NCBI RefSeq assembly: GCF_041053105.1
Contig: NZ_CP163444.1
Span: forward strand, 7,844,501-7,908,500
Direction of reading: 5' to 3'
From: Streptomyces sp. R44
GTDB lineage: Bacteria > Actinomycetota > Actinomycetes > Streptomycetales > Streptomycetaceae
DNA length: 64,000 nt
Shown here: positions 7,214 through 31,319 of the stretch, piece after piece
Layout of the letters: the number at the start of each line of letters is the position of its first letter
Position numbering within the stretch: position 1 is the first letter of the stretch
Program-made: the position numbers and the translations under genes
Notes under the pieces: model-generated
The model's database searches: none
What the model was told of the DNA's origin: nothing
Seen by the model: only the letters and a program-made list of their open reading frames with translations

Positions 7214-10200
7214 TCAGTACCCGATCCGTACTCCCGTGACCGCGTGACGGTCTGTCAATCCGCCGGTGGCCCCGCCGAATCCGACCAGGACGTTCCTGGG
7301 GAGCGTCACCGCCACGTCGATGACCTGGGTGCCGTCGACGAGGACGACGAGACGGCCGGCGGAGGTCACGTTGACGTCGATGACATGGCTGCCGGTACGC
7401 AGCGCGGGGACGGCCGTCGAGGTGGCCGCGTACTGGAGGCTCGTGCCCGTGCCGCCGGTGGCGACCCCCACGAAGTTCGACGACGGCTCCCCGGTGTTGC
7501 GGAACGTGTCCAGGGCGACCGCCACTCCGCTCAGTCCGCTGAAGCCGAGACCGCCGCCCCCGCCGCCGAGTGCGGTGGGCGTCGTACGGCTCGCGTCCAG
7601 GAGCATCAGCGCGAGCCCGTCGGCGCCCGTGCCGCCGGAGAGGGTGGCGGTGAAGCGGGCCCTCAGCCGGGCGGAGGGCACGGCGGTGGCCTGGATCGCC
7701 GAGCCCTTCAGGTACGCCTGGGCCGGTGTCAGGACGAGGCTCGTGCCCGACAGCGCGGCGCTGCCGTTGTACGTCCATCCGTTGGGGCCCGGCGGCGGTA
7801 CGGCGTACGAGGCGGCGGTGATCGACGCGCCCCGCACCGCGTGGATGTCGGTGATGCTGCCCGTCCCGCCGGTGAAGGCGAGGAGCGCGGTCGGGGTGAG
7901 CGAGGCGACGGTGGTCCGCAGCCGCTGGGTCCCGTCCACGGACAGCGTGATGGTCTTGCCGGTGACGGTGACGGACACCGTGTGGGTCCCCGACCGCAGG
8001 TCGGGCACGCTCGACGTCGTCGACGCGTAGGTGAGGGACGAGCCGCTGCCCCCGGTGGCGATGCCGACGAAGTTGGCCGAGGGATCGCCCGGGCTCTTGA
8101 AGGTGTCGAAGGCGACGGCCGTCCCCGGAAGGCCGACGTAGCCGAGGCCGCCGCCGACGCCACCCAGCGCGGACGGTGTGGTCCTCGCCGGGTCCAGGAG
8201 GGAGAACGTCATGCCGTCGGCGCCGGTGCCGCCGCCGATGACCGTGGTGAACGAGGCCTTCAGACCGTCGGTCAGCACCGGCACGGGCCAGACCGCCGAA
8301 CCCCGCTGGGAGGGGCTCGCCTGGGTGAGCTGCAGGTCGTTGCCGGAGATCCGCGCGGAACCGTTCAGCTTCCAGCCGCCCGCACCGGGCGTGGGCACGG
8401 TGACCGTGGTCCCGGCCGTGCCGGTGCCGGTCAGCGCCTCGTTGTGCGGGCCGCTCCCGTCGTCGGCGGTCAGCTCGTACGCGGCCGTCACGGCGCCGAG
8501 GGACGTGGGGGAGAAGGTGACGGCCTGGTGGACGACGTCCTCCGGGCCGAGGACCTGGCCCTCGCTGATCGGATTGGTGACCTGGAACGGAGCCGCCGGA
8601 GGCTTCGCCTTGGTGATGGTGAGGGGGATGTTGCCGGTGTTGCTGATGTCGAAGGTCTTCGTCACGGACTCGCCGACCCTCACCTGCCCGAAGTCCGTCG
8701 AGGTGGGCGTGATGGTGAGCTGCGCCCGGCCGGTCACGGCGGTGCCGCTCAGGGCGACCGACACGGTGCCGTTCGTCCCCGTGACGGCGAGCGTCCCCGA
8801 ATCCTGGCCGGCGGCCGACGGCGCGTACGCCACCTGCACGGTGACGGACTGCCTCGGCGGGACGACCGTGCCCGCGGCGGGCAGGTCGGAGGCGGTGAAG
8901 GGGCCGGCGGGCGGGGAGACCGAGGAGATCGTCTCGCCGGCCGTCCCCGTGTTGGTGAACGTCACGCCGAGCGTCTTACGGGTCGTCGTGGCCACCGTGC
9001 CGAAGTCGAGGGAGGCCGGGGACGCGACGAGCCCGGGCCGGGTCCCGTACCCGGTGAGGCCGAGCGCGCTCGTGCCCAGGTCGGTGGCGAAGGTCAGGGC
9101 GGAGGTGTCGGGACCGGGCGCGGTCGGCGAGAACGTCACCTGGACGGTGAGGGTCTCGCCGGCCCGCAGCGTGCGCGGCAGCCCCGCGGAGGACGCCGAG
9201 AACGCGCTGCCCGCCGGCGTGCTCACCCCGTTGACCGTCACGTCCCGCGTGGCCGTCACGGTGGCCGTCGCCGTCCCCGTCGACCCCACCGCGACCTCAC
9301 CGGCGTCCACGGGCTCACCCGTGAGGGCCGCGTTGGCGGGACGGCCGAAGGCCATCACGTGCCCGTCCCGCGTCCCCACGTAGATCCGCCCGCCGTCGGT
9401 GGCCGGCACCGAGAACTTCGAGGCGGTGCCGATCGGCGCCGACCAGCGCAGCCGCATCGCCCCGTTCACGGGCACGGCGTCGTACGCGCGCAGCTGTCCG
9501 TTGGCGCCGTTCGCCCCGTCCGACGCGACCGCCCACACGAGGGCGGAACCCGGGTTCGTCCCGGTGGACGTCACCACCGGAGAACCGGAGGTGTAGCCGA
9601 ACGTCTGCGCGCTGCTGCCCGTGTTGGTGAGCACCGGCGCACCCGAGGCGGTGAGCCCGTACGCGAACGCCCGCAGCGGCCCCCGGGAGCCGATGGTGTA
9701 CACGTAACCGCCCTGCCCGCCGTACACCGCGGGATGCCCCCAGACGCCCTCGTACGGACCGAACGTGCCGAGCACCTTGTCGGTGCCGCCGGGGCCCTGG
9801 CTCCGCCCGCCGAGATCGTCCCGGTTCAGCAGGAACAGGCGTCCGTCCTTGCCGATCTGGACGAGCAGCCGCGGATACTGGCCGGTCCCGAAGGCCGGCT
9901 CCGGGAGGGCCACCGGGCCGCCCGAGCCGAGGTCGGTGTCGTTCTGGTCGAGCAGCGGCGCGTTGGAGGGGCTGAAGAAGTCCTGTGCGGACATCGTGCC
10001 GTCGCTGTTCACCCCGAGCCGCACCACCGACTCCGCGAGCTGGCCAGGCGGCCGGTTGCCGGGACCCGGCGCGGGGGAGACCCCGTTGCCCGTCGAGAAC
10101 AGGATCCGGCCCGGACCGTCGGAGACCAGACCGCCGCCGCTCATCCACACCCCCGCCATGCCGTTCGCGGAGGAGTCCTCGGTGGCCCACAGGGTCGTCT

Positions 10201-22750: not shown

Positions 22751-23776
22751 TCAGGCGGAGGCGCGGCGGACCAGCGAGGTCGGGGTGATCACGGAGTCCG
22801 GGACCTCGGGCCCGGTCCCGTCGAGCAGCCGCATGAGCAGCTTCACCATCAGCCGGCCCATCCCCTCGATGTCCTGGTGAACGGTGGTGAGCGGGGGAGT
22901 GGTCGTCTCGACGACCGAGGCCATGTCGTCGAAGCCGACGACCGCCACGTCCTCCGGCACCCGCACACCGCGCTCCCGCAGGGTCCGCAGGGCCCCGGAC
23001 GCCATCAGGTCGTTGGCGACGAACACGCCGTCGACGTCCGGCCGCCGGTCGAGGAGCTCCGCCATGGCGCGGGCCCCGCTCTCCTCCGTGAAGTCACCCC
23101 GGCAGAGGAGCGCGGGGTCGGCGTCGAGGAGGACGTCCCGATAGCCGTGGATCCGGTCGATCGCGGACGTCTGGTCGGCGGGTCCGGAGATGTGCGCGAC
23201 GCGCCGCCGCCCGAGACCCACCAGATGCCGCACCGCCTCCCGGGCGCCCCCGCGGTTGTCGCAGTCGACGAAGGGCACGGCCGGATCGGTCCCCGGGGCG
23301 GGCCGCCCGCCGAGGACCACCGGAATCCGGGCCCGCTCGATCACGGCCGGCAGCGCGTCGTCGCTGTGCAGGGAGAACGCCAGAGCGCCGTCGACGTGCC
23401 CGCCGCCGAGATACCGCGAGATCCGCTCGTGGTCCCCCGGCCCCTCCACCCACAGCAGTACCAACTGGGCGTCGTGGGCGGTCAGTTCCCGGCTGATGCC
23501 GCGCACCTGCTGCTCGAAGAACGGGTCCGAGAAGATCCGGAACTCGGGCTCCGCGATGATCACGGCCACGGCGCCGTTGCGCCGGGTGACCAGGGTGCGG
23601 GCCGCGTGATTCGGCACGTAACCGAGCTCGTCGACGGCCTTGAGCACCTTCTCCACCAGCGGTGCGCGTACCCCCGCACCCCCGTTGACGACCCGGGAGG
23701 CCGTGGCGCGGGACACCCCGGCGCGCGCGGCAACGCCTTCCAGCGTGGGGCGGGACCCCGTGGTCTGCTCGGGCAA
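22751..23776 (-). CDS. LacI family transcriptional repressor (CebR-like)
   Basis: This 341-aa regulator has an N-terminal LacI HTH (TLEGVAARAGVSRATASRVVNG) and hinge (LGYVPNHAARTLVTRR), followed by a periplasmic-binding-type sensor domain. The best start is TTG at 23774-23776, 8 nt after GAGGAG; extending further upstream would translate an 8-bp tandem repeat and the operator region. It should repress the importer-GH1 operon and the GH81 gene through TGAGAGCGCTCTCA boxes and release them on binding an imported oligosaccharide. A related box upstream of its own gene indicates autoregulation. Confidence 0.87.
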   Translation of the reverse strand: MPEQTTGSRPTLEGVAARAGVSRATASRVVNGGAGVRAPLVEKVLKAVDELGYVPNHAARTLVTRRNGAVAVIIAEPEFRIFSDPFFEQQVRGISRELTAHDAQLVLLWVEGPGDHERISRYLGGGHVDGALAFSLHSDDALPAVIERARIPVVLGGRPAPGTDPAVPFVDCDNRGGAREAVRHLVGLGRRRVAHISGPADQTSAIDRIHGYRDVLLDADPALLCRGDFTEESGARAMAELLDRRPDVDGVFVANDLMASGALRTLRERGVRVPEDVAVVGFDDMASVVETTTPPLTTVHQDIEGMGRLMVKLLMRLLDGTGPEVPDSVITPTSLVRRASA

Positions 23777-23789
23777 GGCGTACGCTCCT

Positions 23790-23837
23790 CGGCTGGTCGG
23801 CTGGTCGGCTGGTCGGCTGGTCGGCTGGTCGGCTGGT
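23790..23837. repeat. 8-bp tandem repeat, six units
   Basis: The unit CGGCTGGT occurs six times without error, plus a partial seventh. On the minus strand it abuts and partly forms the GAGGAG ribosome-binding site of the LacI-type gene, inside its 5' untranslated region. Confidence 0.9.
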
Positions 23838-23914
23838 CGGGACGCCGTGGTGTGCGTGTCCGATGGGTGGTGTGCGGTCCTGCGCGGACCAGGATATCCG
23901 TAGCCCGTGCCCCT

Positions 23915-23928
23915 TGAGAGCGCTCCCA
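23915..23928. promoter_or_regulatory. LacI/CebR-type operator upstream of repressor gene
   Basis: TGAGAGCGCTCCCA is a near-palindrome, one half matching the two operators at 19683 and 19836 and the other the canonical CebR half-site. It lies about 140 bp upstream of the repressor start. Confidence 0.65.
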
Positions 23929-23994
23929 AGGGACTGCTGTCGGCGCCCGACGTGGTCCGGACCGCGCACCTGTCAAGCCGTGGCGAAAACACCG

Positions 23995-24024
23995 TTGCCC
24001 GCTTCCGGGCGCCATGACTACCGT
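23995..24024 (+). promoter_or_regulatory. Sigma-70-type promoter for the tRNA-like RNA
   Basis: TTGCCC (23995-24000), an 18-nt spacer and TACCGT (24019-24024). Transcription would start near 24031, just before the cloverleaf at 24035. Confidence 0.5.
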
Positions 24025-24034
24025 CGGGGCCTCA

Positions 24035-24106
24035 CGACGTGTAGCTCAGCAGCAGAGCGCCGGGCTCGGGACCCGGAGGGCGCGGGGGCGGAACCCGCCA
24101 CGTCGG
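24035..24106 (+). tRNA. tRNA-Pro(CGG)-like RNA without elbow motifs
   Basis: The segment folds as a complete cloverleaf with no mismatch. Acceptor CGACGTG/CACGTCG (7 bp), linker TA, D-stem GCTC/GAGC with loop AGCAGCA, anticodon stem CCGGG/CCCGG with loop CTCGGGA (U33, anticodon CGG, G37), variable loop AGGGC, T-stem GCGGG/CCCGC with loop GGCGGAA, and discriminator G. C1-G72, G35, G36 and G37 all fit proline tRNA, although bacterial tRNA-Pro has A73 rather than G73. The D-loop lacks G18-G19 and the T-loop lacks T54-T55, the partners that build the tRNA elbow, and CCA is not encoded (CTT follows). It is therefore unlikely to be an ordinary translation tRNA. Its 3' end is 3 nt before the start codon of the next gene. 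Confidence 0.7.
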
Positions 24107-24109
24107 CTT

Positions 24110-26416
24110 ATGGACACACACGCTGACAAGCAGCCGCCGAACGTCTCGGGTTCCTACCCCGAAGGTCGCCTCGCCAGGGCCTTCGTCACCGCGCTCACCG
24201 ACGCCGACCCGGCCACCAGGGCCCGCGCCGACGAACGGGTCCAGGGGTGGCGCCGCGTGCTCGCCGGGATGGCCGCCGGCACCCTGCGCATCGGCTCACG
24301 CACACCCGTGGAGGGTCTGCCCACCTGGGTGACGCTCGAGGTGCTGCACGGCGGCTTCGCGACCGGCGTCCCGAGCGCGGGTGGCCCCCTCCTGCCGTAC
24401 GAGGCCGCGGCCGCGCGACGGGCGGGCGTGCCGGAGGACCGGGAGGCGCTCTTCGCTCACGCCCTGACCGAGGAAGGCCTCACGGAGCTGTGGGCGCTCC
24501 TCGACGACGGGCGCTACGACATCGCCGTCCCCGAGGAGGCGGCGCTCCTGACAGTGGCCTGGCTGGTGCGCGCGGGGGAAGGCGAAGCCGCCCTCGAACT
24601 CGTCGCCGAACTCCGCCCCTTCGCGGACCGGCTGCGGTTCACGCCGCGTCCCTCCGGGGCCCCGGCGCCGGACACCGGCGCCGTGCACCGCCGTACCGTC
24701 GCGGAGGCCGGAGCCGCGCTGTCCCGACGCCGCCCGAACGGCGCCGTGGAGACCCAGCGCGAGGCGCTCGCGGTATGGCGCCCCTTCGCGGACGAGCTGC
24801 TCCGGCACTGGCTGGAGACGGCGGGCCCCGACCACCGCGTGCTCGCCCGCGAGCCTGCCGCGGGCTGGCACGCGCGGGGCGCCGCGCTCCTCGACCGCTA
24901 CCGGAGCCTGTCCCGCGAGCACACCCTGTGCGGAAGACACCGCGACCCCAGGGGCAACATGGGGATCCTGCGCGGAGCACTGGAGGAGACGACGGCCGGA
25001 CGTCCGCTCGACGCGCGGCGGACCGGACTGCTGCGGCACGCCGTCACCTCCATGGTCCGCAAGCGGGGACTGCCCGGATCGGACGAGCACACCGCGCTGC
25101 GCCGCGCCCAGGCGGCCCAGGCCGCACTGCCCTCCCACCGGGACCTGGCGCACCTCGTGGCCGACCGGCTCGCCGGCCTCCCGCAGGGCGCCGGCGCGGC
25201 CGACGTGACCGCGCTCGTCGCTCCGGTCACGGAGGAGGAGCAGCGGCGCTCCGCGCTGCCCGCAGGCACGACCGTCCCGTCCGCGATCCGCCGGGTGGTC
25301 GAGGGAGCACGGAGTGCGCCGCTCGCCACGCTCGTGGAGCTCGGGGTGGTCCCGTCCGCCGAGGTGATGGCCGAGCTGGTTCCCCAGCTCGTCGCCGCCG
25401 AGACGGCGGCGGTGTACCGGGACGGGCCGCTGCGTGCGCTCATGGCCGCGAACTACCGGGCTTTCCGCAGGCGCCGCTCGTTGCTCCTGCTCGATCTGGC
25501 GCGGCAGGTCCGGCCCGGTGAACTCCCCTGGGTCCGCGCGGTGTCGGCACAGCGCAGCGAGGACGCGGGCGCCGAAGGATCGGCCCGAGCGACGCTGCGG
25601 CAGCTCGGTGAGGTGGCCGTGGACGGCTTCCCCGGCACCCTGCTGCCCAACCCGCTCGTCCGTGAACTCGCGGTGCTCGCCGACCGCGCCCGCCTGGACG
25701 CCCCGCTCGTCGAGGAGCTGGCCGCCGACATCTTCATGGGCACGTTCAGCCCGAAGTTCCAGGCGGCCGCGGTGGTCGCCGCGGAGCTCCTCGGCGGGGG
25801 AAGCCTGTACGAGCGGTACTACGGGATCGACTACGCCGACGTCCTCGCCCTGGACAGGGACACCCGGGGACGCACGCGGGCCCGGACGGCGGCCGGGTTC
25901 GCCGCGCTGTGCCACGAGCGGGCCGGCAGGCCCTCGTCCCACGGCGTGGCGGCCAACGGCACGGTGATCGAGCAGGCGCAGATCCTCACGACGCACAACC
26001 TCGCGACCCTCGTCCACCGCGCCGGCGTCGCTCCGGCCTGCGGCTGGGCGGACCTGGCCCGGCGCTGCTTCGTCACGGTGTGCCGCCTGACCGGCCGGGT
26101 GCAGTACGAGCCGCGTCCGCTCGGCACGATCAAGGACGCGGCGTACGCCTGGCGACAGATGCTCTTCCAGCTGTCGCTGTGCGACGACGAGGCGGTGGCC
26201 GGGGTGCTGCGCGGGCTGCGCGACGAGACGGCCCGGCACCCCGCCCATGTGGCCGCCCGCCTGGCGCCGGCCCTGGCGGGGTTGCGTCTGGTGGCGGACG
26301 GAGGTGCCTTCGCCGCCGACGGCACGGCCGAGGCGGGACGCGCCCGGCGCCTGACCGGCTGGACGACCTCGGGCCACTGGCTGAGCACCGACCCGACCGG
26401 GGCCGCCCGACGGTGA
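24110..26416 (+). CDS. Large protein of unknown function, first gene of operon
   Basis: This 768-aa soluble protein is rich in alpha-helical Ala/Leu/Arg sequence; I do not recognise its family. Notable blocks are EGLPTWVTLEVLHGGFATG near the N-terminus, CGRHRDPRGNMGILRGALEET in the middle and YERYYGIDYADVLALDRDTRGR in the C-terminal third. ATG 24110 is the only reasonable start, since the next upstream ATG (24014) overlaps the promoter. No Shine-Dalgarno lies in the window before it, because that space is occupied by the tRNA-like RNA; a leaderless or processed mRNA is therefore possible. A second, larger unknown gene follows after 58 bp, and the two presumably work together. Confidence 0.7.
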   Translation: MDTHADKQPPNVSGSYPEGRLARAFVTALTDADPATRARADERVQGWRRVLAGMAAGTLRIGSRTPVEGLPTWVTLEVLHGGFATGVPSAGGPLLPYEAAAARRAGVPEDREALFAHALTEEGLTELWALLDDGRYDIAVPEEAALLTVAWLVRAGEGEAALELVAELRPFADRLRFTPRPSGAPAPDTGAVHRRTVAEAGAALSRRRPNGAVETQREALAVWRPFADELLRHWLETAGPDHRVLAREPAAGWHARGAALLDRYRSLSREHTLCGRHRDPRGNMGILRGALEETTAGRPLDARRTGLLRHAVTSMVRKRGLPGSDEHTALRRAQAAQAALPSHRDLAHLVADRLAGLPQGAGAADVTALVAPVTEEEQRRSALPAGTTVPSAIRRVVEGARSAPLATLVELGVVPSAEVMAELVPQLVAAETAAVYRDGPLRALMAANYRAFRRRRSLLLLDLARQVRPGELPWVRAVSAQRSEDAGAEGSARATLRQLGEVAVDGFPGTLLPNPLVRELAVLADRARLDAPLVEELAADIFMGTFSPKFQAAAVVAAELLGGGSLYERYYGIDYADVLALDRDTRGRTRARTAAGFAALCHERAGRPSSHGVAANGTVIEQAQILTTHNLATLVHRAGVAPACGWADLARRCFVTVCRLTGRVQYEPRPLGTIKDAAYAWRQMLFQLSLCDDEAVAGVLRGLRDETARHPAHVAARLAPALAGLRLVADGGAFAADGTAEAGRARRLTGWTTSGHWLSTDPTGAARR

Positions 26417-26474
26417 ACCGACTCACACGCCGCCCCCGGCCCGGGCCGAACACCCGGTGCCGGAGGCGGTGTCA

Positions 26475-29400
26475 GTGGCCCGTGCGACGATCCAGGGCAT
26501 GATCGTCTCGCTGGATGCTCTCCTGCCCACCGCCGGTACGCACGTGTCGACCACCTACGCCGACTGGGTCGCCGCCCACGACCCGGGCGCGGTCGAGTCC
26601 GCGCGTGCGCTGGTGCGGGACATGGGGGCCGAGCTCGGCCGGTCCTGGACCAAGCCCGGTGCGTTCGTCGACGTGATGGCGCGGCGAGCGAGGCAGCTGC
26701 CGCCGGCGCATCTGCCGTGGTTCTGGGACACCGTCGGGCACCGGCTGATCGGTTACGGGAGCAGGCCGGGCGGGCGGGCCTACGCCGCGGCGCGGGCGGC
26801 CGAGGTCCAGCACGGGCTGCCCGTCGATCCCGCCTATCGCCTGGCCAACGGGCTGCTGTTCGCCAAGGGCGGGGCCATGCCCGCCAAGGAGTTCGGCGCA
26901 CACCAGCGTTTCCTCGCCGAGACCCTGGAGCCGGCGGCCGCGCACACCGCCCTGGAGGCGTTCCTCACCGCCTGGGCCGCCTCGCCCGCCGATCTGCCCG
27001 CGGATCTGGTGCGCCGGGTACGGGCCTCCGCCAAGAAGGCCGGGCTCGGGGACGAGGAGGCCGCCCGGCTCCTGGGTGCGATCCTGTCGGTCACCCGCGA
27101 GAAAGTCGTGCCGGACGCCCTGCTGACCGCGGCCGAGACGGTCCTGACGGCCCATCCGCCGACGGATGCGATCGCCGCGGGCCTCGTGGAGGTCTTCCCC
27201 ACCGGGGCCACCGACGGGGGCCCCTGGCTGCGGATGCTCATCGGCTGCGGCGCGGCGGGAGCCATGGAGGCCGGCCGGATCGTGCCGGAGGGCGGGTTGC
27301 ACCAGTGGCTCGGCAACTTCGTCCGCATGTACCAGTACTCCCTCCAGTCCGGCGGCGGAGTCGGACGGCAGCCCCTGCCGGGGGAACTGCTGGATCTGAT
27401 CGGCCGGTTGGGGCCCCGCCTGCGCTCCGAGGACGCCCCCGTCACGCTGCACATCACCCGCCACCACTACCAGGGCTTCGACGCGGACGTCCTCGACGCC
27501 TGCCTGGCGGCCGGGGTCGCCGTCACCGACCCGGGCGCGGACCTCGGGATGCGTTTCTGGGGCGAGAAGTCCAGGCGCGACCTCGCCGCGCTCGCCGCCG
27601 ACCCCGTGTTCGGCCCGCGCCTGGAAGGGACCGTGCACGCGAACCTGCTGCCGAACTGGCACAGGGCGCACGGGCGGCAGCCCGGCTCCGCGGTGACGCT
27701 GCTCCCGGGCAACGAGGGCATCGCCCACGAGGTGGCCGGACGGGTCGGCAAGCTCGTCGACACCGTCGGGGGCGGCGGCATGGCCGGCGCCGAGGAATCC
27801 GTGGCCGAGCTGGAGACCCTCCTCGACCGGCCGACCGTGACGGCACTCGGCGGGATCGCCGACGCCCTCGGCGCGACGAGCGCCGCGGGTGCGCTGCGCC
27901 GCTCGCTCACGGCCGGGCTCCCGGAGGAACTGGCGTGGCCGGCCCTGGAGTCCGTGTACGCGGAGTTCGCCGCCGAAGCCGAAGCCGAAGCCGAAGCCGC
28001 CACCGATGCGGATGCGGACGCCGGTGCGGTGGAACCCCTGCCCGGCGTCGCCGGAGTGACCTGCACCTGGCCCGTGCTCACCGTCTTCGGGGCCGATCGC
28101 GCCGTCGCGGTCGACCCGGACGGGGTGCGGGCCTCCTGCCGGTTCACGGTGCCCGACGAGGCGACCATGTACGCCGTCCACTACGTCGGCGGATCCTTCC
28201 TCGTGAGCTGGTCGGTCAAGCGCGATCCGTACTTCTGCGACACCGCCTGCTGGGCGGACCGGCCCGAGGAGCCGTTCACGCCCGACGAGCAGGGCGGACT
28301 CGTGCCGTACGGCGGGAAGCTGGACGGGGCCTACGGCTTCCAGTTCGAGACCGCCGACGGGGGAGGGCGCCACAGCGGCCTCCACGCCCTGCGGCCAGGC
28401 GGTACGGAAGGCATCGACAGCAACGAACTGCAGCTCGGCGACGGCTCCCGCATCTGGACCAACGGCGTGTACCGCAGGCGTGCCTGGGAGGCGGTGGACC
28501 CGGTCACCGGAGAGCCGACGGGCGGCGCCGAGGTGCCCGACTTCCCCGGTCGCCCCGCGAGCGCCGACCCGGCCACGGAACCGTCCGAGACGGGCATGGC
28601 CCTGGCCGCGGGGTCCCTGCACCTGGCGCCGCTGCCCGCCGGGCTGACCGGCTCCCCGCTCGGCAGTAGGGACGGTCTCGTCGGGACCCGGATCCTGTTC
28701 CGCACCCCGCACCGCGACCCCGCGCCCGACCACTACCTGCTCCAGAGCATCGACGGGCGCACGGCCCGGTTCGACATCGACCGGCAGGGGCAGAAGCCCT
28801 GGGCCCTGTGGGCGCCGCCCGAGGGCGCCGTGGAGGACGTGGTCCTCGCCGATGCCGAGACGCGGACGGGCGTGCGCGCGTACACGGCCGACGGCGTCCT
28901 GCTGTGGGAGCTGGACGGCCACCAATCGCCCCGGAGCCCCCGGGTGCGTCCGGCCCGGCGCGTCACCCCGTCCCGGGGTGTCGCCCTTCCCCCGGCCTTC
29001 TGGTACCTGCTCCGGACCCGGGACGCGGTCGGCTCCCGGGCGCTGCGCACCGTGAGCCGGGAGACGGCGGAGGCGCTGCTCAAGGCCGCCTCCGACGACA
29101 CGGCCGCCTCCGAGAGCGCCGACGCCCGGGAGGGAACGGCCGCTTCCGACGGCACGGCGACGGTCCGCGCGGTCGTGGCGCGGGAGCTGCCGGACGTCAC
29201 CGATCCCGTCCTCGTCGAGGCCGTCGTCGCCGTGGCGGTGCGGGCCGCCCGTGTGGAGGAGCGGCGGCGCGCCCTGCACCGGCGCGTCACCCTGCTCGCC
29301 GAGGCGCCACCCGTGCGGCTGCGCCGGTCGGCGCCGGACACCGAACTCGTTCCCGCGCTCTTCGGTCTGGTCGAGACCGGCGAGCCCGACCAGTGGCGGC

Positions 29401-31319
29401 GCACCCCCGACGTGGCCCTCCCCGCGACGCTGACCGCCCTCGCGGCCGACGGCGCCCGCCTGGACGGGACGATCGCCGAGGAGGTGCGGCGGCTCTCGCC
29501 GCCCGCCCCGCCGCACGACTGGTCACAGCTCCTCGGCAGGATCGACGCCGTCGCCTGGCGGGCGGCGGTGGCACCGACCCCGGACCCGGACCGGGCCGCT
29601 CTCCTCGCGCTCCTGGACGCCTGGGCCGAGCAGCCGTTCGCCCGCGCGGGCAGCCGCTGGTGGGCGGGGCGGACGTCCGGCCCCGGCTTCGTGGACTTCA
29701 TGCGCGCGGGCGGTACGGCGATCGCGTCCGCGGGCGTACGGGACGGCGGAGCCGAGCAGTGGTTCGTGGCGCCCGTCGCCGAGAACCCGCACGCCGACCC
29801 GGTGCCGGGCGTGGCCACCGAGGTGCGGCACGTGCGCGTGGAGCGGGACGACGCCCAGCGGCTGCGGGCCCTCGTGGCCGCCGTCGACGCCCACGGACCG
29901 GTCCCGGTCCCGGAGTCGGCGGCCGCCCGCTTCGCCGAACTGACGGGTGTACGACGGTCGGTGGCCCGGCTCGTCGTCGCCGGGCTCGTCGGCCGGGCCG
30001 ACCGGGAGGAGCACGGGGCCCTGGTGCGCAAGGCCCCGTACAAGGCGACCCCGCTGACGGCGGAGTCGTACGAACAGCTCCGCAACCGACTGGGCGGCTC
30101 GGGCCGCAGGGCCGTCCTGGCCGCCGCCCTGCCCGAGGACCCGGCCGAACTGTGGCGGCCGGGCGGGGTCGAGGCGGCCGTGGAGCGGATGGCCGCGGTG
30201 TGGCGGGAGCTCCTCGGGGCGCGGTCCGTCGTCGACGAGGACACGGCCGACGCCCTGGAGGCCCACCTCGGCCTCGGCGAGGTCTGGGCACGGCGCCTCG
30301 CCGGAGGCTACGACGCCGCCGAGGACGCCACCGTGCCGGCGGCCGGCTGGGAGCTGACGGCCACCAGGCAGGGCAGGGGAGTCGAGGTCCGGGCCGTACC
30401 GCAGGCCGGGCCCGAACTGCCCTACCGCACCCCGGTGGGCCTCGCCCTGACGGACATCGCGAGCGCCCTCGTGTGGGCGTGGACGGACCGGCCCGTCGGC
30501 GATCCGGCCCTGGCCGGCGCGCCCGCGCTGTACGAGCGGCTGCGCGCCGAGCTGGAGCGCCCGGAGCTGCTGCTCGAACTCGCCGAAACCAGCGTCCGCG
30601 ACACTCCGGAGCGGATCGCCGAGCGGTTCGGGCCGCGACGGCTGCCGGTGGCCCGCCACCCGGAGAACGAGGCCGATCCGGAGACCGCGTACGACTCGGG
30701 ACCGCTGGTGGTGTGCGCCCCCTTCGGCACCGCCTTCCTGCGCCCCGCGGCCGTCACCGACCCCGGCACGTGGAAGGAGGTGCGCGAAGTCACCGACCTC
30801 GCCGAGGACCTGGACCGGGTGGCGCCGCTGCTCGCGGGCGGCGGGCTGGAGCGGATGATGCGGCGCGCCCTGTCCGGAGCCGTACCGGCCGGGGCGTACG
30901 AGGCCGACCCACGCCGTTCCTGCCCGGAGCTCGTCAGCGAGGTGGCGGCGAAGCTCGGCGTGGGCGAGGACGCGGCGGCCCTGTACCTCCAGCTGGCGAC
31001 CCTCGCCGCGCCCACCGACCGGAACGTACGGCGGTGGAACGGCTGGTCGACCAAGCGGCACACGGAGGTCCGGGCGGAACTCCTCGCCACCGGCGCGGTC
31101 CTGGAGGCCAAGCGGGCACGGGCCGGCCGGACCCTGTTCCTGCCGGGCGACTGGAAGGAACTCAAGGCCCCGCACCTGCCGCTGGAGACCGCGAAGCTGA
31201 AGACCCACGTCGTGCGGCCGATGTGGGACAAGTGGATCTGCTCCCCGTTCGTGAGGATCCTGCCGACGGCCCCCCTCCACGAGATGTTCGAGGAGGCCTG
31301 GGAGCGGATGGGCGGCTGA
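26475..31319 (+). CDS. Very large protein of unknown function (about 1614 aa)
   Basis: Four starts are possible: GTG 26457, 26469 and 26475, and ATG 26499. GTG 26475 is chosen because GGAGG lies 8 nt upstream. No signal peptide or membrane segment is seen. A repetitive acidic linker (EAEAEAEAATDADADAG, about residues 500-520) separates an N-terminal helical half from a middle part rich in beta strands. The C-terminal part is the most gene-family-like (LYLQLATLAAPTDRNVRRWNGWS, THVVRPMWDKWICSPFVRI). Streptomyces genomes often annotate such proteins only as DNA-binding or hypothetical; I see no motif that proves either. It follows the 768-aa unknown by 58 bp in one operon. Confidence 0.7.
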   Translation: MARATIQGMIVSLDALLPTAGTHVSTTYADWVAAHDPGAVESARALVRDMGAELGRSWTKPGAFVDVMARRARQLPPAHLPWFWDTVGHRLIGYGSRPGGRAYAAARAAEVQHGLPVDPAYRLANGLLFAKGGAMPAKEFGAHQRFLAETLEPAAAHTALEAFLTAWAASPADLPADLVRRVRASAKKAGLGDEEAARLLGAILSVTREKVVPDALLTAAETVLTAHPPTDAIAAGLVEVFPTGATDGGPWLRMLIGCGAAGAMEAGRIVPEGGLHQWLGNFVRMYQYSLQSGGGVGRQPLPGELLDLIGRLGPRLRSEDAPVTLHITRHHYQGFDADVLDACLAAGVAVTDPGADLGMRFWGEKSRRDLAALAADPVFGPRLEGTVHANLLPNWHRAHGRQPGSAVTLLPGNEGIAHEVAGRVGKLVDTVGGGGMAGAEESVAELETLLDRPTVTALGGIADALGATSAAGALRRSLTAGLPEELAWPALESVYAEFAAEAEAEAEAATDADADAGAVEPLPGVAGVTCTWPVLTVFGADRAVAVDPDGVRASCRFTVPDEATMYAVHYVGGSFLVSWSVKRDPYFCDTACWADRPEEPFTPDEQGGLVPYGGKLDGAYGFQFETADGGGRHSGLHALRPGGTEGIDSNELQLGDGSRIWTNGVYRRRAWEAVDPVTGEPTGGAEVPDFPGRPASADPATEPSETGMALAAGSLHLAPLPAGLTGSPLGSRDGLVGTRILFRTPHRDPAPDHYLLQSIDGRTARFDIDRQGQKPWALWAPPEGAVEDVVLADAETRTGVRAYTADGVLLWELDGHQSPRSPRVRPARRVTPSRGVALPPAFWYLLRTRDAVGSRALRTVSRETAEALLKAASDDTAASESADAREGTAASDGTATVRAVVARELPDVTDPVLVEAVVAVAVRAARVEERRRALHRRVTLLAEAPPVRLRRSAPDTELVPALFGLVETGEPDQWRRTPDVALPATLTALAADGARLDGTIAEEVRRLSPPAPPHDWSQLLGRIDAVAWRAAVAPTPDPDRAALLALLDAWAEQPFARAGSRWWAGRTSGPGFVDFMRAGGTAIASAGVRDGGAEQWFVAPVAENPHADPVPGVATEVRHVRVERDDAQRLRALVAAVDAHGPVPVPESAAARFAELTGVRRSVARLVVAGLVGRADREEHGALVRKAPYKATPLTAESYEQLRNRLGGSGRRAVLAAALPEDPAELWRPGGVEAAVERMAAVWRELLGARSVVDEDTADALEAHLGLGEVWARRLAGGYDAAEDATVPAAGWELTATRQGRGVEVRAVPQAGPELPYRTPVGLALTDIASALVWAWTDRPVGDPALAGAPALYERLRAELERPELLLELAETSVRDTPERIAERFGPRRLPVARHPENEADPETAYDSGPLVVCAPFGTAFLRPAAVTDPGTWKEVREVTDLAEDLDRVAPLLAGGGLERMMRRALSGAVPAGAYEADPRRSCPELVSEVAAKLGVGEDAAALYLQLATLAAPTDRNVRRWNGWSTKRHTEVRAELLATGAVLEAKRARAGRTLFLPGDWKELKAPHLPLETAKLKTHVVRPMWDKWICSPFVRILPTAPLHEMFEEAWERMGG

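Follow-up and report, generated by a model that had tools for sequence, protein, structure and literature searches.

In type III toxin-antitoxin systems such as ToxIN, a short and sometimes repeated RNA lies directly upstream of its partner gene under one promoter. Allo-transfer RNAs (allo-tRNAs) have a 12-base-pair (bp) acceptor branch divided 8/4 or 9/3. Archaeal tRNA-Pyl, in the account given by PMC7609411, has no G18-G19 in its D-loop and no U54-Psi55-C56 in its T-loop and works with a dedicated protein, and in phage tRNAs, those of mycobacteriophages among others, variation of the anticodon loop is attributed in PMC10264068 to an anticodon-nuclease conflict in which host enzymes are evaded. 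Here we describe an RNA-protein unit from a 64,000-nucleotide (nt) stretch of Streptomyces sp. R44 (contig NZ_CP163444.1, positions 7,844,501 to 7,908,500; hereafter the window), in which a 72-nt tRNA-like RNA directly precedes the gene for a 768-amino-acid (aa) protein. The unit consists of one or more RNAs (one to four copies) directly upstream of one gene. Judged from the changes counted across relatives, the anticodon is hypervariable, at or above the synonymous rate, while most of the RNA body is constant, and the linkage of the RNA to the gene makes it nearly certain that the two form a dedicated module.

The arrangement resembles that of type III toxin-antitoxin systems: the RNA is upstream in all clear cases, and more than one copy is present in 14 or more of the 112 GGC-type units (those with a T-loop beginning GGC, as at this locus) and in 5/5 protein-bearing genomes from the order of genome G390. 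The unit differs from ToxIN in having a cloverleaf instead of a pseudoknot repeat and, as partner, a predicted helical solenoid of roughly 770 aa. Set beside a ToxN-type endoribonuclease, this partner has no Pfam or PADLOC family and no confident fold match by which to place it. The RNA family also departs from allo-tRNAs, dividing its acceptor branch 7/5 in the aligned rows. Set against the description in PMC7609411, where tRNA-Pyl is an amber suppressor with an aminoacyl-tRNA synthetase, the RNA here keeps C56, its anticodon varies and its protein matches no synthetase family. The phage tRNAs treated in PMC10264068 are decoding tRNAs in phage clusters, whereas the present RNAs are chromosomal or plasmid-borne, linked to one gene and without a phage match. 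The nearest canonical tRNA (RF00005) is the tRNA-Pro(UGG) of the same genome at 6461764, scored at 62 bits by R1, our covariance model of the family. The two have in common the 7/4/5/5 cloverleaf, U8, A14, G15 with C48, U33 and C1-G72, but the lineage of our RNA is without G18-G19, T54, T55 and A58, has G73, exchanges its anticodon and is always fused to one gene. No published account of this RNA-protein unit was found in the open-licence PubMed Central literature, among the matches listed, by title and start of abstract.

A cloverleaf tied to one gene

The RNA, its three loops and its partner gene are placed as follows in the window.

24035..24106, + strand: tRNA-like RNA of 72 nt, a cloverleaf of 7/4/5/5 bp with discriminator G73 at 24106
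24048..24054, + strand: D-loop AGCAGCA, without the G18-G19 pair, as read in the sequence
24065..24071, + strand: anticodon loop CTCGGGA, hypervariable at positions 34-38 by loop counts across relatives
24087..24093, + strand: T-loop GGCGGAA; G54, G55, C56 and G58 are invariant on a 93-tip tree, and 57 and 59 change often
24110..26416, + strand: gene of the 768-aa protein, partner of the RNA, a predicted all-helical solenoid

An earlier note on this DNA, made from its letters alone, had tied the RNA to the gene that follows and had suggested looking for homologous loci that lack the cloverleaf. None was found among clear homologues of the protein whose N-terminal end could be seen; every one of them has an upstream cloverleaf. 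In the named genomes, where loci were fetched by protein (best 80 of 278 confirmed loci), the RNA is upstream in 80/80, 78 of them recognized by script and two (L114 and L115) by model R1. Among 150 Streptomyces genomes, 25 have the protein and 20 the RNA. All 20 RNA-bearing genomes have a protein match, which in G104 is a short broken stretch. The five with protein and no RNA comprise three with fragments lacking the N-terminal end (G057, G064, and G080) and two with weak matches at E > 1e-4 (G008 and G071), taken for chance; that of G071 is 35% identical over residues 23-102 within a 1210-residue frame. Across the class, the protein profile matches 27 of 394 genomes, not counting a second, C-terminal protein fragment in G473, and the gene is preceded by a cloverleaf in 27/27, by model R1 in 20 and in a divergent form in seven (G205, G255, G295, G315, G333, G376, and G390). 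In G333 only 47 protein residues are seen, and the RNA pairs at 19/21 positions. Five of the 121 genomes in the order of G390, itself one of the 27, have the protein, each with two RNAs, and 376 genomes of the phylum gave four protein matches, including G843, outside the class, with two RNAs. The protein is present in six plasmid records, and the RNA in the same 6/6.

Searched with the RNA model at E 1e-10, with stricter filters that may lose weak matches, 25 of the 394 genomes of the class match: 20 with the protein, one with a decayed copy and four with tRNA-Val(TAC)-like RNAs of 64-67 bits, where the protein is absent. The only copy of at least 68 bits without protein is the decayed one, L202 in G452, in which an 87-bit family RNA is followed by a 22-aa protein remnant and a short open reading frame (ORF) that we read as transposase-like. 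Loci L189-L207, fetched by means of the RNA, add no independent evidence of linkage. A pattern scan of viral contigs for the RNA found nothing. The unit is patchily distributed and sometimes plasmid-borne, and the protein family spans at least two classes of Actinomycetota, with protein-named homologues, known here from protein sequences alone, in Jiangella, Kribbella, Amycolatopsis, Actinoplanes, Nonomuraea and others.

The unit script was given 124 loci; L114, L115 and L202 stayed unparsed, and the other 121 collapse to 110 distinct units. Loop counts come from a wider parse with 6-8-nt loops, L114 and L115 added, which yields 112 units and 133 RNAs, 127 of them with 7-nt loops, while tree rates of sites outside the anticodon, pairwise loop comparisons and protein-tracking tests come from a 7-nt-only parse in which the loop of L017 is misread (1/93 rows). 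Units with more than one RNA include L071 and L193, and L013 shows a further RNA that lies after the parsed one and before the gene; extra RNAs in L039 and L062 of the wider parse look like chance.

From 5' to 3', the RNA reads CGACGTG (acceptor), TA, GCTC AGCAGCA GAGC (D-arm), G, CCGGG CTCGGGA CCCGG (anticodon arm), AGGGC (variable loop), GCGGG GGCGGAA CCCGC (T-arm), CACGTCG (acceptor) and G. This bears out the earlier reading of a perfect cloverleaf with standard pairs at 21/21 stem positions, a CGG (Pro) anticodon loop, C1-G72 and neither elbow motif, the D-loop having no GG. The start given there, 24035, also stands, and the end, given as 24112, has to be moved to the discriminator at 24106. 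ARAGORN calls the RNA tRNA-Pro(CGG). RF00005 scores it at 49.1 bits (gathering score 29; E 1.8e-7), 73rd of 75 tRNA matches in its own 8.89-Mb genome, and model R1 at 96.9 bits. In 50 stretches taken from the same genome, 67/67 ARAGORN-called tRNAs have a TTC-type T-loop, which makes our RNA an exception among the own-genome tRNAs seen. Compared with a canonical decoding tRNA, it has the standard-arm cloverleaf (by ARAGORN, RF00005 and covariation) and lacks the G18-G19 and TTCRA elbow, which distant relatives do possess. No curated Rfam leader family (T-box or other riboswitch) was found in the window, where only RF00005 reaches its gathering score.

The predicted minimum-free-energy structure is exactly the cloverleaf, at -33.8 kcal/mol; 58 of 200 shuffles fold equally well (z -0.39). 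By itself, folding energy thus says nothing, and it is conservation and covariation that carry the argument against chance. In 91 distinct GGC-type RNAs, 99.9% of the pair cells are standard and 7/21 pairs show two-sided changes, compared with at most two pairs in slid-alignment controls. When 36 RNAs with GGC- and TTC-type T-loops are taken together, 99.6% of the cells pair and two-sided changes reach 11/21 pairs (controls, at most four). The compensatory changes that the earlier note proposed to look for upstream of homologues are present in this wider set, and by this pattern of changes the stem structure is under selection. Among the scored sites, 35/65 never change; pairs 3-70 and 51-63 swap between forms, and the D-loop varies. 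A possible pairing of the D-arm (GCTCAGC) with GCTGAGC in the coding sequence (CDS) was dropped for want of supporting covariation.

Turnover of the anticodon loop

The hypervariable anticodon, the RNA arrays and the wide occurrence of the unit go beyond what had been noted from the letters of this locus. Among the 127 RNAs with 7-nt loops there are 38 different loops and 25 different anticodons, which cover 16 amino acids and stop, in place of the conserved anticodon of a canonical decoding tRNA. C32 and U33 are present in 127/127, and A is rare at 34 (1/127) and 35 (4/127). Recombining the loop columns gives about 33 anticodons, compared with the 25 present. On a FastTree tree of the proteins, at least 43 anticodon changes are needed over 92 tips, and sites 34, 35 and 36 change 21, 29 and 21 times. 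At 275 four-fold synonymous sites of the gene, the mean is 18.1 changes (5th-95th percentile, 8.7-29), which places site 35 at the 95th percentile; sites 26, 57 and 59 change 20, 18 and 24 times.

The same turnover is seen between closely related units. The loop differs in 187 of 256 protein pairs that are 80-90% identical, with ∼1.4-1.5 differences over five loop sites versus about 2 over 58 body sites, and in 5 of 15 pairs that are >90% identical. In L052 and L117, for instance, whose proteins are 88% identical, the scored bodies are identical and the loops have three differences.

No protein column tracks a single anticodon position clearly above control RNA positions (normalized mutual information ≤0.46 versus ≤0.37), and the normalized mutual information with the protein is 0.79 for the whole anticodon and 0.86 for the D-loop. 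This lack of clear tracking fits a loop whose reader, if there is one, lies outside the pair. The anticodons found are among the 44 listed for the RNA's own genome in 115/127 cases, with 85% expected (permutation p about 0.03). Pairing of loop positions 34-38 with the 120 nt upstream or with 150 nt of the CDS gave a best z of 4.7 (2.32 versus 1.96 of 5 pairs) and was judged phylogenetic noise.

Elbow forms, promoter and start codon

In the elbow-less, GGC-type lineage, 108 of 133 RNAs lack GG in the D-loop and 25 have it. TTC-type relatives have T-loops of the form TTCGANN, and D-loop GG is present in 17 of the 18 RNAs read, the exception being the second RNA of L255; the T-loop of L114, TGCGATC, is intermediate. 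By these counts, change in one half of the elbow tends to go along with change in the other, but not absolutely. The joint loss of both halves, as proposed from this locus, therefore holds as a tendency and fails as a strict coupling, with GG kept in 25/133. TTC-type RNAs have in common C1-G72, an anticodon stem CCCGG/CCGGG or near and a variable loop AGGGC or near. In these distant relatives the elbow is canonical, the RNAs mostly come in pairs whose anticodons differ, and the start appears to lie apart, further downstream; the tandem anticodons of the five genomes in the order of G390 are CCG+GTC, TCG+CGT, TCG+CGT, GTT+CGA and CCA+GTG. Anticodon loops of 6 nt occur in L239, L240, L246 and L255 and, by the wider parse, also in L017, L088, L193 and L207.

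Three further features lie around the RNA and the start of the gene.

23995..24024, + strand: promoter, with -35 TTGCCC (23995-24000), an 18-nt spacer and -10 TACCGT (24019-24024), from the sequence and the arrangement in relatives
24107..24109, + strand: spacer CTT between discriminator and start, too short for a Shine-Dalgarno sequence, 1-3 nt in relatives
24122..24124, + strand: codon 5, GCT (Ala), singled out by the GCT frequency in related units

The sigma-70-like promoter proposed in the earlier note ends 10 nt before the RNA, and its arrangement is kept in related units: TTG-(16-19 nt)-TANNNT immediately precedes the first RNA in 88 of 109 GGC-type units, compared with 0 of 545 control windows. 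A generic promoter scanner reported 0 promoters for this site. The start codon also lies where it had been read, the ATG at 24110 being 3 nt past the discriminator. The spacer is 1-3 nt long in 106 of 110 GGC-type units, and the start is ATG in 106/106 of these. In Streptomyces avermitilis, 22.2% of mRNAs are reported in PMC8780764 to be leaderless, with a strong AUG preference. Given this preference and a start that is always ATG where it abuts the RNA, leaderless release is plausible in the elbow-less lineage. At 12 TTC-type loci, L252 included, the starts (nine GTG, two ATG, and one TTG) appear about 20-100 nt downstream with purine-rich stretches before them, by our own reading, and abutment is therefore not general. 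The idea that RNase Z cleavage would leave a leaderless mRNA thus gains support in the elbow-less lineage and falls as a general principle, the TTC-type starts appearing distant. In Jiangella-like genomes (f19), an ATG within the 3' strand of the acceptor was rejected as start in favor of a downstream GTG behind a purine-rich stretch, again by reading.

GCT is used for the early Ala codon in 82 of 87 GGC-type units, compared with 2.5% GCT among the other Ala codons of the same genes, and from this excess the constraint on the RNA element seems to extend into the CDS. For the elbow-less lineage, we incline slightly toward the view, drawn from these sequence comparisons, that RNA and leaderless mRNA are released together.

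The protein and what the unit may do

The 768-aa protein has no sequence relative in Pfam, PADLOC or PDB and reaches only E 0.21 in NCBIfam. Searches with 14 and 51 homologues gave scattered weak NCBIfam and Pfam matches (best E, 0.018 and 0.0021), each confined to one or two homologues and disregarded here. An AlphaFold2 model is nearly all helical, with a predicted local distance difference test score (pLDDT) of 91.7 and a predicted template modeling score of 0.87 (pLDDT of 93.3 for a model of residues 60-400). At E 0.001, neither the whole model nor residues 60-400 have a Foldseek match in the PDB, and there is no viral structure match. VIA gave Z values of 7.5 for the whole chain (65 Å root mean square deviation) and 5.6 for residues 60-400, from which no fold is claimed; weak whole-chain structure matches are mostly to helical-repeat proteins. 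By its model, the protein is predicted to form a helical solenoid, and it falls in no known family. No flanking ORF cluster is conserved in more than 10 of 75 loci.

In the mechanism that we propose, transcription in the elbow-less lineage would start a few nt before the RNA, and a cut after G73 by RNase Z, the tRNA 3'-end enzyme, would split the transcript into the RNA and a leaderless AUG mRNA, which would couple production of the two partners. The protein would bind the constant body and leave the anticodon loop exposed. The loop would then serve as bait or sensor for a third party that recognizes anticodons. The likeliest candidates are the anticodon nucleases of phages, plasmids or rival bacteria, and the state of the protein would change once the bait is attacked or captured. 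Such a bait would explain why the body is constant, why the loop is fast with C32 and U33 fixed, why anticodons differ within arrays, why co-evolution is lacking in the protein and why the unit is patchily distributed and at times carried by plasmids. To the reading that we prefer as a whole, a dedicated module in which the exchangeable anticodon is turned toward a third party, anticodon nucleases perhaps, we give somewhat less than even weight, its function being one that we infer. That the anticodon is bait or sensor for anticodon-directed attack is our best guess, and a tentative one. A more specific version, doubtful at present, is an immune module in which a guard protein holds one or more decoy tRNAs and is switched on, as by a tripwire, when an anticodon nuclease from a phage, plasmid or rival cleaves them; if true, a few changes of loop bases would retarget the alarm, and arrays would watch several tRNAs at once.

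Several observations weigh against a loop read by a third party. Shuffled labels need 52-63 anticodon changes, compared with the 43 counted, so there is some inheritance of the anticodon. Other unpaired sites (26, 57, 59 and the D-loop) also change at about the synonymous rate, so the speed of the loop by itself does not show that the loop is read. The preference for host anticodons is weak when distinct loops are counted (p about 0.08, from an earlier parse), and position 37 follows host tRNA rules only partly and often departs from them. As for the protein, no catalytic domain was recognized in it, it and the 1620-aa protein encoded downstream, the only two scanned, have 0 PADLOC families at E 0.1, and 0 copies of it occur in 50,697 phage records.

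One alternative is neutral drift, in which the RNA serves the protein as structural cofactor or antitoxin while its unread loop simply wanders. Drift would produce a constant body with a variable loop and no protein column that follows the anticodon, and the rates at 34 and 36 lie near the synonymous mean. With site 35 at, and not above, the 95th percentile of four-fold sites and other unpaired sites fast too, we have weighed the bait reading lower and drift higher. Drift nevertheless sits badly with the 29 changes at position 35, with the fixation of C32 and U33 in all 127 seven-nt loops, with the near absence of A at 34 and 35 and with 25 anticodons where column recombination gives about 33, and we consider it unlikely, if a serious competitor. 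A comparable, low probability goes to a leader acting in cis, a stable fold at the 5' end of the mRNA whose unfolding or processing by RNase Z controls translation and leaves the anticodon unconstrained. It is suggested by the AUG that adjoins the fold in 106/110 units, always as ATG there, by the promoter right upstream of the RNA and by the GCT constraint just past the start. In the relatives with canonical elbows, however, the start seems to lie about 20-100 nt downstream, preceded by a purine-rich stretch, only the last RNA of an array could gate a start although arrays are found in at least 14/112 units, and maintenance of a fold would not need C32 and U33 in 127/127.

A decoding or mistranslating tRNA, one body with one amino acid that reads many codons, would account for the intact cloverleaf, the retained U33, the canonical elbows of the distant clade and the 115/127 anticodons that exist as tRNAs in the RNA's own genome. 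The main lineage is without an elbow, however, eight loci have 6-nt anticodon loops, and no copy of at least 68 bits stands without the protein in 394 genomes, decayed L202 excepted; we regard this alternative as very improbable. In line with the earlier note, the RNA is very unlikely to be an ordinary decoding tRNA. An ordinary tRNA gene, or an assembly or sequencing artifact, beside an unrelated gene has the ARAGORN and Rfam calls in its favor and is refuted by the comparative data, namely, the recurrence of this RNA, with compensatory changes, at one and the same position in dozens of genomes and the TTC-type T-loops of the 67 own-genome tRNAs. tRNA finders list at least some such RNAs as ordinary tRNAs.

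The unit, then, would comprise an RNA of tRNA origin that is tied to one uncharacterized protein family and in which the anticodon is one of the parts that evolve fastest. If a third party does read the anticodon, an element among the most constrained in the cell would have been turned into an exchangeable recognition module. Elbow loss in tRNAs, transcripts that fuse tRNA and mRNA, and leaderless translation could likewise be studied in these units as natural experiments.

The earlier note had linked the RNA to two large proteins. The second, of 1620 aa (26457-31319), has no Pfam or PADLOC match and adjoins the unit only in close relatives: its gene was found in 7 of 117 loci (L001-L003 and L038-L041), many of the 117 having short flanks. 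As L002/L038 and L003/L040 are the same contigs, these are five distinct genomes including this one. The 1620-aa gene was therefore dropped from the unit, and with it the two-protein operon.

A few unusual tRNA-like genes were met along the way. A tRNA array on Rhizobium leguminosarum plasmid pRlX5 (L035), with no 768-aa homologue in its 18-kb stretch, was set aside; at 8996-9184 of this locus are two tRNA-His-like genes (GTG) with T-loops GTCGGCA and GTCAGCA, scored at 71.5 and 63.1 bits by model R1. In another actinobacterium (L208:1501-1572), a tRNA-Val(TAC)-like gene has the T-loop ATCAACA and no relation to the unit was seen. The genome of our RNA also contains low-scoring tRNA-like matches at 5571319 (L167; 42.0 bits), which reads as tRNA-Ala(AGC) with loop ACAGCAT, and at 4551705 (L125; 43.6 bits). 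Upstream of the promoter, tandem GGTCGGCTG repeats occupy 23786-23842, in the 5' part of a LacI-family gene (22751-23992, minus strand).

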